Part shown: positions 3,727-11,422 of the stretch, piece by piece
How positions within the stretch are numbered: position 1 is the first letter of the stretch
Layout: every line of letters starts with the position of its first letter
DNA from: Deltaproteobacteria bacterium
GTDB lineage: Bacteria > Desulfobacterota > Binatia > UTPRO1
Direction: 5' to 3'
Assembly (NCBI GenBank): GCA_020848745.1
Contig: JADLHM010000054.1
Coordinates: forward strand, 1 to 64,000
Length of the DNA: 64,000 bases
Notes under the pieces: model-generated
Told to the model about the DNA's origin: nothing
Databases searched by the model: none
The model's input: the letters and a program-made list of their open reading frames with translations, nothing else
Translations under genes and position numbers: made by a program

Positions 3727-3769
3727 TTACCGCTCCACGCTTCCGGTTCGACATCTCGAGGCTCCGATC

Positions 3770-4237
3770 ATGCGAATGATTCTTCCGAGCGTGCGCGCGC
3801 GACGCGACGTCGATCGTGCATTGCAAAATTTTTTTGCTACGTATCGCAACGCGGAATTCCGTCGGTTCATGAACACCATTTGTCGCTTTTACGGCGTCAA
3901 GCGGCCGACGATCGAGTGGTACGAATACCTGGACTGGGGCAAGGGCGCTGGCCGGACGTGGGACGACGGCAAGATCGGGCTCGTACACCCCGAGAACTGG
4001 AAGCGCGGGCGAAAATACAACGGCATGCGCCAGTGGATCCACACCGTGCACCACGAGTTCGGCCACTACCTCTTCTGGGCCGACGCCGAGCGTAAGGCCG
4101 ACCTCTTCGCGGACAACATGATGTCGGGCGTGAGCGACGCAACTCAGCGGACGCGCGCGCGACCGAAGCCGATGACACGCATGCGCATGACCGGCCAACA
4201 GCGGAGCGTCGCCCGCCGGCGCTCCGCGGTCTGCTGA
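3770..4237 (+). CDS. Small zinc-metallopeptidase-like protein (HEFGH, ImmA/IrrE-like)
   Basis: A 155-aa protein with the zinc-peptidase motif HHEFGHYLFW and, close behind, DAERKADLFADNMM, which resembles the ExEAxxFA segment after the HExxH helix in ImmA/IrrE (DUF955) peptidases. The spacing is shorter than usual. ATG 3770 is preferred over the upstream TTG 3698, which lies in a promoter -35 box; GAGG sits 8 bases before the ATG. The C-terminus (after about residue 125) is a basic low-complexity tail. No partner repressor gene is adjacent, unlike typical ImmA/ImmR pairs. Role unknown. Confidence 0.6.
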   Translation: MRMILPSVRARRDVDRALQNFFATYRNAEFRRFMNTICRFYGVKRPTIEWYEYLDWGKGAGRTWDDGKIGLVHPENWKRGRKYNGMRQWIHTVHHEFGHYLFWADAERKADLFADNMMSGVSDATQRTRARPKPMTRMRMTGQQRSVARRRSAVC

Positions 4238-4241
4238 GCGC

Positions 4242-5042
4242 TCAGGTCGCGACGTCTTCGCCGCCGTCGACGCCGATCACCGTCCCGGTGATCCACTGCG
4301 CGTCGTCGCCGGCGAGCATGGCGATCACACGCGCGACGTCGCCCGTCTCCGTCATCCGGCCACTCGGATTGCGGGCCCGGACGTGCCCGGCCATGAGCTC
4401 CGAGCCCGGGATTTTCCGGAAGGCCGGCGTGTCGGTGACCCCGGCGCGAATGGCGTTCACCGTGACGCCCATGGGCCCGAGTTCGACGGCGAGCTGGCGC
4501 ACGTGCGCCTCGAGCGCGGCCTTCGCGGCCGAGACGGCACCGTAGCCCGGCCAGACGCGCGTCGATCCGGCGCTCGTCATCGCGACGACGCGGCTGCCCC
4601 GCACCAGCAAATTGCGCGCGGCGGCGTCCTGGACCCAGTACACGAGGCTGTGCGCCATCACATTCATCGTCATCTCGATCTGCGCGGGAGTCGCGAACCG
4701 GGCCGGCTCGGCGCCGACGAAGGGCGTGAGGCTCCCGAAGGCGAGCGAATGCATCAGGACGCGAATCGCTCCACCGCCCTTCTCGGCCATGCGCTGCGCT
4801 AGGGCATCGAGCACGTGCCGCCGCTTCTCGTGATCGGCTGCGTTCATGTTCAAGAAAAGCGCGTCGCGTCCTGCCGCGCGGATCGCCGCGGTGATCTCGT
4901 CGACGTGGGCGAGACCGGCGCGACGATCGAGGTGCACACCGCACACGTCCATGCCGCGCGCCGCCAGCGTCCGCGCGGTCGCCTCGCCGAAGCCGCTGGA
5001 AGCGCCGAGGATGAGCGCCCACCGTCCCGCCGTGTCCGCCAT
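4242..5042 (-). CDS. Enoyl-ACP-reductase-like short-chain dehydrogenase
   Basis: NAD(P)-dependent reductase of 266 aa with the Rossmann glycine motif GASSGFGEA near the N-terminus. It does not have the classical SDR YxxxK; it reads YGAVSAAKAAL, Tyr-x6-Lys, the spacing of FabI/FabL enoyl-ACP reductases, and MHSLAFGSL resembles the FabI HS-AF segment. It could reduce enoyl thioesters in fatty-acid synthesis or act on another carbonyl substrate. Start at ATG 5042 gives the standard N-terminus (MADTAGRWALILGAS). It stands alone, with its stop codon 4 bp from that of the convergent peptidase gene. Confidence 0.8.
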   Translation of the reverse strand: MADTAGRWALILGASSGFGEATARTLAARGMDVCGVHLDRRAGLAHVDEITAAIRAAGRDALFLNMNAADHEKRRHVLDALAQRMAEKGGGAIRVLMHSLAFGSLTPFVGAEPARFATPAQIEMTMNVMAHSLVYWVQDAAARNLLVRGSRVVAMTSAGSTRVWPGYGAVSAAKAALEAHVRQLAVELGPMGVTVNAIRAGVTDTPAFRKIPGSELMAGHVRARNPSGRMTETGDVARVIAMLAGDDAQWITGTVIGVDGGEDVAT

Positions 5043-5132
5043 GGGGGCGGACCATAAAGCAAGCGACCCGCATCGACAACCGACTGGATTTCTTGCGTTT
5101 CCTTCCCTGGGGCTGGTAAGGCATCGGCGAGC

Positions 5133-5684
5133 ATGGCGCGAGCACGAGAGGGCGGGCCGACGATCGCGAATCGGTGGTGGGTCGACGCCGACAAGGGCGA
5201 GGACAAGGGCGCGAAGGGCGCACGGCCCCCGATCGGCAGCCTCTTCTTCACCATCGGTTACGACTTCGATCAGGAGCGCGCCAAGCAGCGCCTCACCGAC
5301 GCCAACTTGAAGCTGCTGGCCGAGGCCCGTCCTCCGGTGAACGAGTGGCGGACGATCCACTTGGTCCCGAACGAGTCCGTTCCGGCGGAAAAGATCGAGC
5401 GCATCAAGCGCCGACTCCCCCTTCCCCCCGGCGCGCGGGGCGTGATAGTGGACTCCGGCCGTTCGGCCCGCTTCGTCCTCACGGGTGATCCCGTTGGCGA
5501 GCGAGTGCTCGAATTCACGCTTGGCGAGGCTTCATCGTTCGACTGTTGGATCCGGGGAGATTGGGTGCGCGAAGAGCTCTTTCGCGACCTCGGCGACGCG
5601 CTTCGCCGCGGAGAGCGGTTGGTCGGCGAGTACCTCGGACCCGAGCCGCATGCCGACAACCAGACGACAAGCATGAGCGCGTAA
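5133..5684 (+). CDS. Hypothetical protein
   Basis: Unrecognised 183-aa soluble protein without signal peptide or membrane segment. A polar basic/acidic start (to about residue 35) is followed by a folded-looking mixed alpha/beta region (GSLFFTIGYDFDQERAKQRL; ARGVIVDSGRSARFVLTGDPVGERVLEFTLGE) and an acidic amphipathic helix near the end (WVREELFRDLGDALRRGERLVGEYLG). It precedes the small membrane-protein gene at 5701 by 16 bp, so the two are probably co-transcribed. Confidence 0.6.
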   Translation: MARAREGGPTIANRWWVDADKGEDKGAKGARPPIGSLFFTIGYDFDQERAKQRLTDANLKLLAEARPPVNEWRTIHLVPNESVPAEKIERIKRRLPLPPGARGVIVDSGRSARFVLTGDPVGERVLEFTLGEASSFDCWIRGDWVREELFRDLGDALRRGERLVGEYLGPEPHADNQTTSMSA

Positions 5685-6039: not shown

Positions 6040-6390
6040 TTATTTCTTCTCTTGCTCGTTCTGCTCGGCCAGCTGCCGCTTCCAGTCGAGGACGCGCGCT
6101 TTCGCCCCTTCGGCTTCGGCCTCGGCGATCATGCCCTTGCGCTGGTAGAACATCGACAAGCTCGTGTGCGCGAGGGTGTCGTCCGGCGTCAGCTCCACGA
6201 GGCGTTTCCCCTGCTCGATCGCCTCGTCGAACCGCTTCGCGTCGGCATAGGCCATCGCGAGCCCAAGGATGGCGTCGGTGAAGGCGGGATCGACCGCAAG
6301 GGCCTCCTGATAGGCGGCGATCGCCTCCTCGAGGCGGCCCTCGGCCACGTGATCGACGGCCAGATCGTAGAGCTCTTCGGCGCTCGGCAT
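6040..6390 (-). CDS. Small TPR-repeat protein
   Basis: A 116-aa soluble protein made of about three tetratricopeptide repeats: ELYDLAVDHVAEGRLEEAIAAYQEAL-VDP, then AFTDAILGLAMAYADAKRFDEAIEQGKRLVELTP, then DTLAHTSLSMFYQRKGM-AEAEAEGAKA, and a short charged tail. TPR units mediate protein-protein contacts. Start at ATG 6390; the longer open frame upstream is an Arg-rich shadow. It lies 11 bp downstream of the secreted-protein gene 6402-6728, likely in one transcript. Confidence 0.75.
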   Translation of the reverse strand: MPSAEELYDLAVDHVAEGRLEEAIAAYQEALAVDPAFTDAILGLAMAYADAKRFDEAIEQGKRLVELTPDDTLAHTSLSMFYQRKGMIAEAEAEGAKARVLDWKRQLAEQNEQEKK

Positions 6391-6401
6391 GGCTCCGGAA
6401 C

Positions 6402-6728
6402 CTAACGAATCGGCCTCGGAGCGACAAGCGGCGCCGCGTTGACAGGCCGCGGACCGGTCCCTATTGCTGGGCGCTCCGCATCGACGGCTTCGATGGCGGC
6501 CACGAACGTCCGGGGAACTCCGACCGCGCCGCGTTGGCGCGTGAACCACACCTCAGATCCCGCGAACCAATGCTCGCGAACGACGAGCTCACGGCCGTTG
6601 ACGAAACGTACCCGCACGTCGGCGGTCGCCGAAGACGCTGAGCCGAACGTGAACCCAGCGACGATCGAACCCACGCCGACCACCGATCCGACGAACGATG
6701 CGCTGCGTGCGCGCGTCCTCGATTTCAT
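6402..6728 (-). CDS. Small secreted hypothetical protein
   Basis: A 108-aa protein with a signal peptide (MKSRTRARS, hydrophobic core to about residue 36). The mature part is short and beta-rich (RVRFVNGRELVVREHWFAGSEVWFTRQRGAVGVPRTFVAAIEAV). This NGR - W - G - V - F - G-VGVPR - V - I spacing is typical of small domains that follow signal peptides in many deltaproteobacterial proteins, but no named family can be given. The first 80 bases overlap the opposite-strand LuxE-like gene if that starts at 6649, so one of the two starts may be wrong. Confidence 0.5.
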   Translation of the reverse strand: MKSRTRARSASFVGSVVGVGSIVAGFTFGSASSATADVRVRFVNGRELVVREHWFAGSEVWFTRQRGAVGVPRTFVAAIEAVDAERPAIGTGPRPVNAAPLVAPRPIR

Positions 6729-7722
6729 CGCTCGGCCCTCCCACGACGATTTTGACGGTCTCGCGCTCGAGATCCATCACTACCAGTATCGGGTGAATCC
6801 GGTGTACCGGCGCTTCGCGGACCGCCTCGGCGCGGCCGCGCCAGGCGCCTGGCGGGAGATTCCCGCCGTCCCGGCGGAGGCGTTTCGCATGAGCGTGCTC
6901 GCCTGCGGGCCGGCGGAGCGCGTCTATCGCAGCAGCGGCACGACCGCCGGCCCCGGCCGACGCGCCGCACACCACGTGCCGGACGTCGACGTCTACCGCG
7001 CCTCCGCGCTCGCCGGGTTCGCGCGCGCGGTTCTGCCGTCCGGAACGCGCCGCCGCTTCGTCGTCGCGGCTCCCGAGCGCGCGAGCCATCCCGCGTCGTC
7101 CCTCGGCGAGATGGTGACCTGGCTTCGCCAGAGCTCGGACACGGACAGCGTGCCTTCGTGCCTCACCGCCGGCGGCGTCGACGTCGAGCGGCTCGCGCAC
7201 ACGCTCGATCGCGTCGGCACCGGCGGACCGATCGTGTTGATCGCGGTCACGTCGGCGCTGTTGCGGCTCGCCGACTGGGCCGAGGCGCGGCGGCGCCGCT
7301 TCACCCTGCCGGCCGGCAGCCTCGTCGTCGACACCGGCGGGTGCAAGGGGTACGCGCAGGATCTCGCGCGCGCCGACGTGCTCGCGCGCTACCGGCGCAT
7401 CCTCGACGTCGCGACCGAGCAGATCGTGAACGAGTACGGCATGACGGAGCTCGCCTCGCAGCTCTACGCTACGGGGGACGGCCCGCTGCGCGCGCCGCCC
7501 TGGCTGCGGGTCCTCGTCTGCGACCTGGCGAGCGGCCGTGAGGTCGCGCCCGGCGCGGTGGGATGCCTCCGCTTCTTCGACCTCGCGAACCTCGGCTCGG
7601 TCCTGGCAATCCAGACCGAGGACGTCGGACGCGTCCGCGACGGCGGGATCGAGCTGCTCGGCCGGGCGCCTGGAGCCGTCGCGCGCGGGTGCTCGCTCCT
7701 CGCCGACGAGGGAGCCGCGTGA
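6649..7722 (+). CDS. LuxE-like acyl-protein synthetase (ATP-dependent acyl activation)
   Basis: Adenylate-forming enzyme related to LuxE (long-chain-fatty-acid luciferin-component ligase), which activates a fatty acid with ATP and holds it as a thioester. Supported by the N-terminal DFDGLALEIHHYQYRVNPVYRRF, a phosphate-binding SSGTTAGPGR loop, NEYGMTELASQLY, and a C-terminal GRAPGAVARGCSLLADE in which the Cys lies 10 residues from the end, the position expected for the acylated Cys of LuxE. With GTG 6649 as start the length is 357 aa, close to LuxE (about 370). The start is uncertain because it overlaps an opposite gene. Its stop overlaps the next start by GTGA. Confidence 0.8.
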   Translation: MNPATIEPTPTTDPTNDALRARVLDFIARPSHDDFDGLALEIHHYQYRVNPVYRRFADRLGAAAPGAWREIPAVPAEAFRMSVLACGPAERVYRSSGTTAGPGRRAAHHVPDVDVYRASALAGFARAVLPSGTRRRFVVAAPERASHPASSLGEMVTWLRQSSDTDSVPSCLTAGGVDVERLAHTLDRVGTGGPIVLIAVTSALLRLADWAEARRRRFTLPAGSLVVDTGGCKGYAQDLARADVLARYRRILDVATEQIVNEYGMTELASQLYATGDGPLRAPPWLRVLVCDLASGREVAPGAVGCLRFFDLANLGSVLAIQTEDVGRVRDGGIELLGRAPGAVARGCSLLADEGAA

Positions 7723-9014
7723 TCGGCCTCGACGAGCGTTTGACGCCGACACGGACGCCGCTCGTTCCGGCGCGGGTGCGGGCGCTGGCGCGAACGCTGC
7801 GCGCCGGTGCGACGGGACTCCGTGCGCTGCCCCTGGAGGCGCGCATCGCCGCGATCGATCGGCTCGCGGCCGCGTGGCTCCCCGCCGACTCGCCGTGGCG
7901 CGCCCGCGCCCGCGCCGAGCTCGCCATGTCCACCGGACACCCGGCCCCCGTGATCGACGCCGCCCTCGATCATCTCTGGCACGCGCTCCGCGCGCCCGAG
8001 CTCGCGGCCGCCGTGAGGGGCGAGCTCGCCGACGCGGATCTCCGCCGGTTGCCGGACGTCGCCCTGCACGTTCTCGCGGGGAACGTGCCGGGCGTGGGCG
8101 TGTTCGGCATCGCGGCGGCGCTCCTCGCAGGCGTCCCGAGCCTCGTGAAGCCCGCTGCCCGCGAGCCTTTCCTGCCGGCCCTCCTCGTCGAGTCGATCGC
8201 GGCGCTCGCGCCCGAGCTGCGACCCGCCATTGCCGTCGCACCATGGCGCGGTGGAAGCGAAGCGCTCGATGCCGCGGCGTTCGGCGCCGTAGACCTCGTG
8301 CTCGCCTACGGTCGGGACGAGACGCTCTCCCGTATCGCCGCCCGCAAGCCGGCGCGTCTCCTCCGCCATGGCGACCGCACGAGCATCGCCCTCGTGGCCC
8401 GCGCCGCGCTCGGCCCGCGCACTGCGCGCGCGCTCGCGTACCAGACCGCGCTCTACGACCAGCAGGGGTGCCTCTCGCCGCGCGTCGTCTTCGTGGAGGA
8501 CGCCGACCGGCGCGACGTCGACCTCTTCTCGGCCCTGGTCGCGGCCGAGCTCGGCGTGCTCGAGCACGAGCTCCCGCGCATCCCCCCGGAGCTCGGCGCG
8601 CGCGCGAGCGTCTGGCGGTGGCTCGAGCGCGAGCGCTGGCGCGCGCAGGAAGGCGCGGACGTGTCGGTGCACGGAGGCCGCGACGGCGCGGGGAGCGTGG
8701 TCTGCGATCGGACGCCAGACTGGTCGACGGGTCCGAGCTTCCGACACCTCGTGCTGATACCCGTCGCGACGCTCGCCGGAGCCGCCGAGCCGCTGCGCCG
8801 TCTCGCGGGCACGATAGAGGCGGTCGGCTACGCGGGGCCGGTCGAGAGCCTCGCGGAGGCGGCCGCGGTGGCCGCGGCGGCCGGGGCCCATCGCTTCTGT
8901 CCGCTGGAGCGCCTCCAGGCGCCGCCGTTCGCGTGGCGCCAGAGCGGCCATCGCCGCCTCGCGAGCTTCCTCGCCCACGACGACGCGGTCGCGCCGGCGC
9001 TGCCCTTCGCGTGA
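7719..9014 (+). CDS. LuxC-like acyl-CoA/acyl-enzyme reductase
   Basis: A 431-aa aldehyde-dehydrogenase-fold reductase of the LuxC family (PF05893), which reduces an acyl thioester to an aldehyde with NADPH. Seen are LHVLAGNVPGVGVFGIAAALLAGV (cofactor region, about residues 117-138) and YDQQGCLSPRVVFVE with the predicted catalytic Cys251. GTG 7719 overlaps the previous stop as GTGA, and its own end overlaps the aminotransferase start the same way, so the three genes are translationally coupled. No luxA/luxB luciferase genes are nearby, so the aldehyde probably feeds the neighbouring aminotransferase. Confidence 0.85.
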   Translation: MIGLDERLTPTRTPLVPARVRALARTLRAGATGLRALPLEARIAAIDRLAAAWLPADSPWRARARAELAMSTGHPAPVIDAALDHLWHALRAPELAAAVRGELADADLRRLPDVALHVLAGNVPGVGVFGIAAALLAGVPSLVKPAAREPFLPALLVESIAALAPELRPAIAVAPWRGGSEALDAAAFGAVDLVLAYGRDETLSRIAARKPARLLRHGDRTSIALVARAALGPRTARALAYQTALYDQQGCLSPRVVFVEDADRRDVDLFSALVAAELGVLEHELPRIPPELGARASVWRWLERERWRAQEGADVSVHGGRDGAGSVVCDRTPDWSTGPSFRHLVLIPVATLAGAAEPLRRLAGTIEAVGYAGPVESLAEAAAVAAAAGAHRFCPLERLQAPPFAWRQSGHRRLASFLAHDDAVAPALPFA

Positions 9015-10282
9015 CCCGGCGCCCCGACCGACGCCGCAGGCGCCGCGGCGAGGCGCGCGACGCCACCGCCCTCGCTCGCGACTTCCGCCTGCACGTCGCC
9101 CAGACCTCGACCGCACCGCTCGGCATCGTCGTCACCGAGGCGCGCGGCGCGTGGCTCACGGACGGGGGCGGCCGGCGCTATCTCGACCTGCTCTCGGGCA
9201 TGGGGGTCGTGAACCTCGGCCACGGCAACCGCGCCGTGATCCGGGCGTCCCTCGCGCAGCTCCGCCGCCACCTCCACGTCATGGTGTACGGCGAGTACGT
9301 GCTGACAGCGCAAGTCGAGCTCGCGACCCGCCTCGCCGCGCTCGCCGGTCCGCCGTTCGAGAGCTGCTACTTCACGAACAGCGGCACGGAAGCCATCGAG
9401 GGCGCGCTCAAGACCGCCCGCAAGCACACGGGGCGCAGCGGCCTCGTGGGGTTCGCGCTCGGATTCCACGGCGACACCTTCGGCGCGCTCTCGATCGGCG
9501 GGAATCCGCTGTATCGCGACCCCTTCCTGCCGTTGCTTCCGAACGCGACGATCCTGCCGTGGCAGGACGCGCGGGCGCTGCGCGCCATCGATCGCCGCAC
9601 CGCCGCCGTCGTGATCGAGCCGGTCCAGGCCGAAGGCGGCGTGCGGGTCGCCGACCCGGCGTATCTCAGCCTCCTGCGCGCGCGGTGCGACGAGGTCGGC
9701 GCGCTCCTGGTGTTCGACGAGGTCGTGACGGGCATGGGCCGCACGGGCACCCTCTTCGCCTTCCAGGGATGCGGCGTCCGCCCCGATCTGCTCGTGCTCG
9801 CGAAGGCGCTCGGGGGCGGCCTGCCGCTCGGCGCGTTCCTCGGCACGCGGCGCGTCCTCGCAACGCTCACGAAACGGCCCGCCCTCGCTCACGTGACGAC
9901 CTTCGGGGGTCATCCGCTCTCGTGCGCAGCGGCGCTCGCGGCGCTGAACGAGACGGTCGCCCGCGACCTCCCGGGCCGCGCCGCCGCGAGCGGCCGCGTC
10001 TTCCTCCGCGGCCTCCAGGACCTCGCGGCCCGCCACGCCGTCATCCGCGCGGTCCGCGGCGCCGGTCTCCTGCTCGCCGTCGAGCTGGCGACGCCGATCG
10101 CGACCCGCCGCTTCGCCGCGGCCTGCCTCGCGCGCGGCCTCATCGTCAACTGGACGCTGCACCGCGACACCGTGATCCGACTCGCGCCGCCGCTCGTGAT
10201 CGGACGCGCCGAGATCGAGCTCGCGCTCGCCACGATGGAGGCGGCGCTCGGAGACCTGCGACGGACGAGCTTCCGCGCCTAG
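9011..10282 (+). CDS. Class III PLP aminotransferase
   Basis: A 423-aa fold-type I aminotransferase of the ornithine/GABA/putrescine class. It shows FTNSGTEAIEGALKTAR (PLP phosphate site), the VFDEVVTGMGRTG segment with the pyridine-N-binding Asp236, and LVLAKALGGGLPLGAF with the PLP lysine K265. The first 20 residues are Arg-rich and may be an extension; GTG 9011 is chosen from the GTGA overlap with the reductase gene. In this context the plausible reaction is amination of the aldehyde made by the LuxC-like enzyme; an amino-acid substrate is the alternative. Confidence 0.87.
   Translation: MTRRPDRRRRRRGEARDATALARDFRLHVAQTSTAPLGIVVTEARGAWLTDGGGRRYLDLLSGMGVVNLGHGNRAVIRASLAQLRRHLHVMVYGEYVLTAQVELATRLAALAGPPFESCYFTNSGTEAIEGALKTARKHTGRSGLVGFALGFHGDTFGALSIGGNPLYRDPFLPLLPNATILPWQDARALRAIDRRTAAVVIEPVQAEGGVRVADPAYLSLLRARCDEVGALLVFDEVVTGMGRTGTLFAFQGCGVRPDLLVLAKALGGGLPLGAFLGTRRVLATLTKRPALAHVTTFGGHPLSCAAALAALNETVARDLPGRAAASGRVFLRGLQDLAARHAVIRAVRGAGLLLAVELATPIATRRFAAACLARGLIVNWTLHRDTVIRLAPPLVIGRAEIELALATMEAALGDLRRTSFRA

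Positions 10283-10297: not shown

Positions 10298-11422
<1,125 letters not shown>

Follow-up and report, generated by a model that had tools for sequence, protein, structure and literature searches.

A conserved trio of LuxE-type, LuxC-type and class III aminotransferase genes in Binatota, with a predicted role in the conversion of carboxylic acids into amines

What might genes related to the fatty acid reductase of luminous bacteria do beside an aminotransferase gene in an uncultured soil-type bacterium of the Binatota? The question is raised by three consecutive genes, predicted to encode a LuxE-type acyl-protein synthetase, a LuxC-type reductase and a PLP-dependent class III aminotransferase, which are located in a 64,000-nucleotide stretch of contig JADLHM010000054.1 (hereafter the window). 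The host lineage, UTPRO1, bears the name of an order within Binatota (PMC8262859), and two of the compared genomes (G001 and G002) are its relatives in the same genus. A preliminary description of this DNA had proposed that the three genes form an operon for a possible fatty-aldehyde-to-amine pathway operating without luciferase, with a long-chain amine or amino-lipid head as its product.

Organization of the three-gene locus

As shown in Table 1, the trio stands alone in the window, flanked by a divergent gene for a TPR protein and by a convergent prfB. The three genes had previously been described as coupled by two GTGA overlaps; the positions of the open reading frames and of both overlaps match this exactly. 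Gene 1 has an uncertain start (GTG), as its open frame extends up to position 6439. Purifying selection was detected on all three genes (dN/dS of 0.17-0.34 in nine comparisons).

The window also contains, upstream of the trio, a gene for a FabL-like SDR (155.9 bits, below the cut-off of 328), which is found at the same place in many families, and two genes for small proteins with no Pfam match, whose order is kept across several families of the class.

Table 1. Features of the three-gene locus and its surroundings (positions in the window).
Feature	Position	Strand	Length	Basis
Small protein gene	3767-4237	+		
FabL-like SDR gene	4242-5057	-		
Small protein gene	5133-5684	+		
TPR-protein gene, divergent, upstream of the trio	about 6040-6432	-		
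Gene 1, LuxE-type acyl-protein synthetase	6649-7722	+	357 aa	PF04443 and class profile A1
LuxE Cys348 codon, predicted acyl-carrying cysteine (RGCSL)	7690-7692	+		Invariance and alignment with 7xc6_E
GTGA start/stop overlap, genes 1/2	7719-7722	+		Read directly from the sequence
Gene 2, LuxC-type acyl (thioester) reductase, ALDH fold	7719-9014	+	431 aa	PF05893 and predicted structure
LuxC catalytic Cys251 codon (QQGCLSP)	8469-8471	+		Invariant; aligned with 7xc6_A
GTGA start/stop overlap, genes 2/3	9011-9014	+		Read directly from the sequence
Gene 3, PLP-dependent class III aminotransferase	9011-10282	+	423 aa	PF00202
Aminotransferase Asp155 codon (FHGDT)	9473-9475	+		HGDT invariant in 36 homologues
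Lys265 codon, PLP Schiff-base lysine (LAKALGGG)	9803-9805	+		Invariant in alignment A3
prfB, convergent, downstream of the trio	10298-11290	-		

Identity of the encoded proteins

The single-sequence score of gene 1 against the Pfam LuxE family (PF04443) was marginal (26.4 bits, with a cut-off of 24.9), and its identity was therefore checked with a family profile. This profile (A1), an alignment of 24 LuxE members of the class, was run against solved structures and matched only one, the Photobacterium LuxE of the fatty acid reductase complex (PDB 7xc6, chain E; 116.6 bits, E = 9.4e-33, positions 26-358). The conserved RGC motif of the class aligned with the GCSL motif carrying the acylated cysteine of the Photobacterium protein. 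Cys348 itself, placed 9 residues from the C-terminal end within RGCSLLADEGAA, is invariant in 38 homologues and in alignment A1, and the residues R346-G347-C348 are 100% conserved in the class-wide alignment. The score against the luminous LuxE equivalog (NF052244) was 24.5 bits, below the cut-off of 550; judged by its sequence, the gene 1 product is a member of the LuxE superfamily and not a luminous LuxE. The LuxE structure predicted from a four-row alignment (pLDDT of 51.6) was too poor for use.

A scan of the whole genome with PF04443 gave a weak match elsewhere (G000:C49:10613-10936, locus L001, in a 555-codon frame) and missed the gene in the window, so that scans based on the family model alone would overlook the trio.

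Gene 2 is the only PF05893 (LuxC) gene found in its genome (131.7 bits). Its catalytic Cys251 is 100% conserved class-wide and invariant in 43 homologues, and was aligned with the DQQACFS motif of the LuxC chain of 7xc6. In a comparison with the PDB, the predicted structure, of moderate quality (pLDDT of 67.6), likewise matched the LuxC of 7xc6 best (E = 6.7e-16). As with gene 1, the score against the luminous equivalog (NF052251; 46.5 bits) was below the cut-off, in this case 750.

Gene 3 matched the class III aminotransferase family PF00202 with 312.3 bits. The lysine expected to bind PLP, Lys265, is present in 97% of the class-wide alignment, the exception being one truncated copy. The domains and residues that the preliminary description had read from the three genes (a LuxE-type domain with a C-terminal GCSL cysteine, a LuxC-type reductase with Cys251, and a complete PLP aminotransferase with K265) are thus borne out by the family matches, the intact residues and, for the first two, the correspondence with 7xc6.

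Among the matches listed, gene 3 exceeded no NCBIfam equivalog cut-off. It scored 316 against the ArgD model TIGR00707 (cut-off 410), 335 against PRK03244 (cut-off 457) and, over the aminotransferase part only, 296 bits against the PigE equivalog NF053554 (cut-off 850); acetylornithine, LysJ and putrescine enzymes were about as close as PigE. The possibility that gene 3 is the ArgD of this genome was rejected, because it falls below the ArgD cut-offs and the true ArgD is another gene, located elsewhere in the genome and exceeding the ArgD subfamily cut-off (465 bits); HemL is also separate. The enzyme is distinct from this ArgD, and the earlier proposal, against which a tight grouping with amino-acid-specific enzymes would have spoken, was not refuted on this point.

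The position of the invariant Asp155 is occupied by Arg in LysJ (FSGRT) and by Lys in the putrescine aminotransferase PatA (FHGKS), as revealed by comparison with PDB entries, and by Arg in a distant homologue (L169; FHGRT). This Arg presumably binds the carboxylate of ornithine-type substrates, and its replacement by Asp would argue against an amino-acid semialdehyde as the substrate.

The genome encodes 22 luciferase-family proteins (PF00296), 10 of which were tested against NCBIfam. No LuxA or LuxB was found among these 10, all of which were best matched by models of F420-dependent LLM proteins; the best score against the luciferase alpha model was 46.9, compared with a cut-off of 600.

Distribution of the trio in the class

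The sample comprised 98 genomes, i.e. the host genome and relatives of the Binatota lineage, nearly all of which are known to share the class only; genes in the relatives were called by a simple script. LuxC was detected in 78 and LuxE in 79 of these genomes, and a single-copy orthologue of the aminotransferase (539-719 bits) in 75. Three further aminotransferase genes (G044, G069, G075) are cut at contig ends and represent apparent absences only. Of the 98 genomes, 95 have either the whole trio or none of it, and a partial set was observed solely in three fragmented ones (G051, G073, G074).

The 18 genomes lacking all three genes are (i) all ten of family f2, (ii) all four of family f12, including a single-contig assembly, (iii) the single f16 genome, and (iv) G004, G040 and G093. 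The absences in f2 and f12 count as independent losses of the trio. In the genomes of the last group a missing contig would drop the whole cluster, and they are not treated as independent losses.

All three genes were located within the examined locus stretch in 61 of the 78 LuxC-bearing genomes. Linkage is loosened or lost in several others (G045, G063, G070, G009, G011, G096), yet the trio is complete in each. Conversely, 12 genomes of family f6 encode LuxC and the aminotransferase in a single open frame with the reductase first; in one example (L041; 940 residues in total) the LuxC part spans residues 97-519 and the aminotransferase part residues 545-940. When 30 loci were compared pair by pair, the distances of the three proteins were correlated (Mantel r of 0.84-0.91), as expected for shared descent.

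The conservation of the trio beyond its own genome was thus confirmed by the co-occurrence search. Its treatment as one unit without luciferase is supported by (i) the all-or-none distribution, (ii) the fusion in f6, (iii) the presence of a true LuxE cysteine, and (iv) the lack of LuxA and LuxB among the 10 proteins tested.

The place of the locus, between the TPR gene and prfB-lnt-ybeY-phoH-alaS, is kept in many families. Clustering of the neighbourhoods of the class loci identified prfB, lnt, ybeY, phoH, alaS, the TPR protein, the FabL-like SDR and the small proteins as recurrent neighbours, and no recurrent amine-using partner, conserved downstream amine-using gene or recurrent transporter. 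The recurrent neighbours reflect conserved synteny and are not pathway genes. LuxD was not seen adjoining the trio. A gene for a Zn-alcohol dehydrogenase is placed directly downstream of the aminotransferase gene in families f11 and f15 (L049:6695-7918, minus strand, and L053:12015-13262, plus strand), and lipid A-type acyltransferases are encoded near the f11 loci.

LuxE-LuxC pairs outside the class

Within 395 genomes of the phylum, aminotransferase orthologues scoring above 600 bits were confined to the class. A related aminotransferase from outside it (G366, 430 bits) carries FHGRT and is encoded among transporter and amidohydrolase-like genes with no LuxE or LuxC; it was rejected as not belonging to the same system. 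LuxE-LuxC pairs do occur outside the class, and this aminotransferase was absent from the loci examined, which came from other families of the phylum and from plasmids, through which alone other phyla were sampled.

In other families of the phylum the pair follows a gene for an FAD oxidoreductase (L078, L080, L083, L085), with U32-family proteins encoded downstream where tested; this is another conserved context without the aminotransferase. Elsewhere, LuxE-LuxC is accompanied by an SDR-like gene (L087) or placed in an ACP-containing locus (L091). In a further locus (L092:10670-13342) LuxC is fused to an AMP-binding (PaaK-like) domain, making a one-chain activator-reductase, downstream of LuxE and two further ligase-like genes.

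The LuxE proteins of plasmid pairs from Pantoea, Azospirillum, Priestia and Lactiplantibacillus are 30-38% identical to that of the window. These closest non-luminous pairs adjoin SDRs and small-molecule importers, which suggests that other acids, too, can be substrates of this branch. In all four loci (L133-L136) LuxE-LuxC is combined with an SDR or a 3-oxoacyl-ACP reductase, and in three of them with an ABC or solute-carrier-23 importer; shared by plasmids of very distant bacteria, the set looks like a mobile acid-reduction cassette. On a Deinococcus plasmid the pair lies in a sugar/ACP locus resembling the flagellar glycosylation islands of Aeromonas, which contain adjacent LuxE-LuxC genes (PMC7874193). 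Taken together, these contexts give LuxE-LuxC the look of a general module for making aldehydes from acids. What then becomes of the aldehyde appears to depend on the partner, which in the Binatota class is the aminotransferase.

Proposed pathway and alternative explanations

The co-occurrence of the three genes, the fusion and the intact catalytic residues support well a three-step logic, in which the trio very probably converts a carboxylic acid, of whatever kind, through an aldehyde into an amine. LuxE would adenylate the acid with ATP, and the acyl group of the resulting acyl-AMP would be placed on its own Cys348. From there the acyl group would move to Cys251 of LuxC, where reduction by NAD(P)H would release it as the aldehyde; the class III aminotransferase would convert this into R-CH2-NH2, with glutamate, for example, as amino donor. 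In f6, the joining of LuxC and the aminotransferase into one polypeptide would favour hand-over without a free aldehyde. We infer each catalytic step, as well as the acyl-chain length, the amino donor and the final product.

As substrate, a fatty acid made by the cell itself is the most likely; the trio would then yield a fatty amine or supply a lipid with its amine end. A long chain is suggested by the homology to luminous LuxC-LuxE and by analogy with TamA/TamH (see below). This part is clearly less certain than the three-step logic, for which reason the full statement, that the trio makes a primary amine from an acid, most likely an endogenous fatty acid, is given a probability of about 0.6. 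In a more far-reaching version, the product is a class-specific fatty amine or amino-lipid forming a core part of the membrane or cell surface of Binatota, so that the trio would stand for a lipid class not described so far and for evolution's second answer to the making of amines from fatty acids; this is a tentative extension that may be correct but is not the outcome we expect.

The same uncertainty about chain length leaves some room for a non-fatty acid (short, aromatic, dicarboxylic or amino-acid-like) processed along the same three-step line, as by ArgB-ArgC-ArgD or LysZ-LysY-LysJ of lysine synthesis. The scores of the aminotransferase, nearest to acetylornithine, LysJ and putrescine enzymes, are consistent with such a substrate, as are the SDRs and importers beside the related plasmid pairs. 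We nevertheless consider it unlikely, given that the genome has its own ArgD, that the Arg of FHGRT is an invariant Asp in the trio enzyme, and that no transporter recurs beside the trio.

Class III aminotransferases are reversible, and the line might run backwards, with the aminotransferase deaminating an amine and LuxC oxidizing the resulting aldehyde to an acyl thioester, in a catabolic degradation of amines. Binatota are indeed predicted to use methylamine (PMC8262859). Such a direction would leave LuxE, an ATP-spending activator of acids, idle, although its cysteine is invariant and the gene is gained and lost together with the other two, which makes this explanation very improbable. As little credit can be given to the view that LuxE and LuxC supply an aldehyde or alcohol for some other use, with the aminotransferase an unrelated passenger of the operon: the LuxE-LuxC pairs examined outside the class lack this aminotransferase, and an alcohol dehydrogenase gene follows it in f11 and f15, but a passenger would hardly show all-or-none presence, fusion to LuxC in one family and co-retention when unlinked. 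That the trio is a remnant of a bioluminescence system (luxCE without luxAB), as its homology to the luminous enzymes might suggest, is hardly tenable in view of the weak likeness to luminous LuxE and LuxC (24.5 and 46.5 bits), the lack of LuxA/B among the 10 of 22 luciferase-family proteins tested, and class-wide vertical retention under purifying selection.

Should the acid-to-amine reading be correct, it would give LuxE and LuxC homologues a job outside bioluminescence and predict an amine-containing lipid or metabolite in most of an uncultured bacterial class. The natural LuxC-aminotransferase fusions would then be possible biocatalysts for the conversion of acids into amines.

Comparison with known systems

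The preliminary description had also stated that no system with this three-gene logic is known. In this general form the statement does not hold, since TamA/TamH and PigE have been described; it does stand for the combination of LuxE and LuxC with an aminotransferase, of which a literature search (Lux, aminotransferase and fatty-amine) yielded no report. The main text of the Binatota paper (PMC8262859) likewise contains no mention of LuxC, LuxE or an aminotransferase. In the papers searched we found neither this combination of modules nor a LuxC fusion with the reductase in front, nor the conservation across the class.

The luminous LuxC-LuxE(-LuxD) system (PDB 7xc6) shares with the trio a LuxE with a near-C-terminal acyl-cysteine, a LuxC with a catalytic cysteine, and the conversion of acid into aldehyde; in contrast, the sequences of the trio are very distant, no luciferase was found, and the aldehyde is presumably aminated. 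The LuxE-LuxC genes of glycan islands and plasmids (Aeromonas, Deinococcus, Pantoea, Azospirillum, Priestia) are also adjacent and non-luminous, but their partners are ACP, SDR, AMP ligase, glycosyltransferase or transporters, and none of the examined loci has a class III aminotransferase. ArgB-ArgC-ArgD offers the same sequence of carboxylate activation, reduction to an aldehyde and class III transamination, although it activates by phosphorylation and uses another reductase, and the genome's own ArgD is separate from the trio.

PigE of prodigiosin synthesis (PMC8341465) likewise has a thioester reductase placed first and joined to a class III aminotransferase; unlike the trio, its reductase is acyl-ACP-reductase-like, it has no LuxE-type activator and it is part of a pigment cluster. 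A close parallel in logic is provided by TamA and TamH of tambjamine synthesis in Pseudoalteromonas tunicata, which combine ATP activation of a fatty acid, thioester reduction and class III PLP transamination and convert a C12 acid into the amine in one pot in vitro (PMC9594044). The two systems differ in that (i) in TamA, a class I adenylation-ACP didomain, the thioester is on the ACP, whereas LuxE of the trio would carry the acyl group on its own cysteine, (ii) the TamH reductase is acyl-ACP-reductase-like, whereas that of the trio is a LuxC with an ALDH fold, and (iii) reductase and aminotransferase are fused in TamH in the order aminotransferase-reductase, whereas in Binatota they are adjacent in the window and form one frame, in the order reductase-aminotransferase, in f6. 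The trio is thus predicted to work like TamA/TamH and, with its LuxE-type activator and LuxC-type reductase, is not a member of that system; if the proposed pathway is correct, LuxE, LuxC and the class III aminotransferase would represent a third architecture beside the two known reductase-aminotransferase systems.
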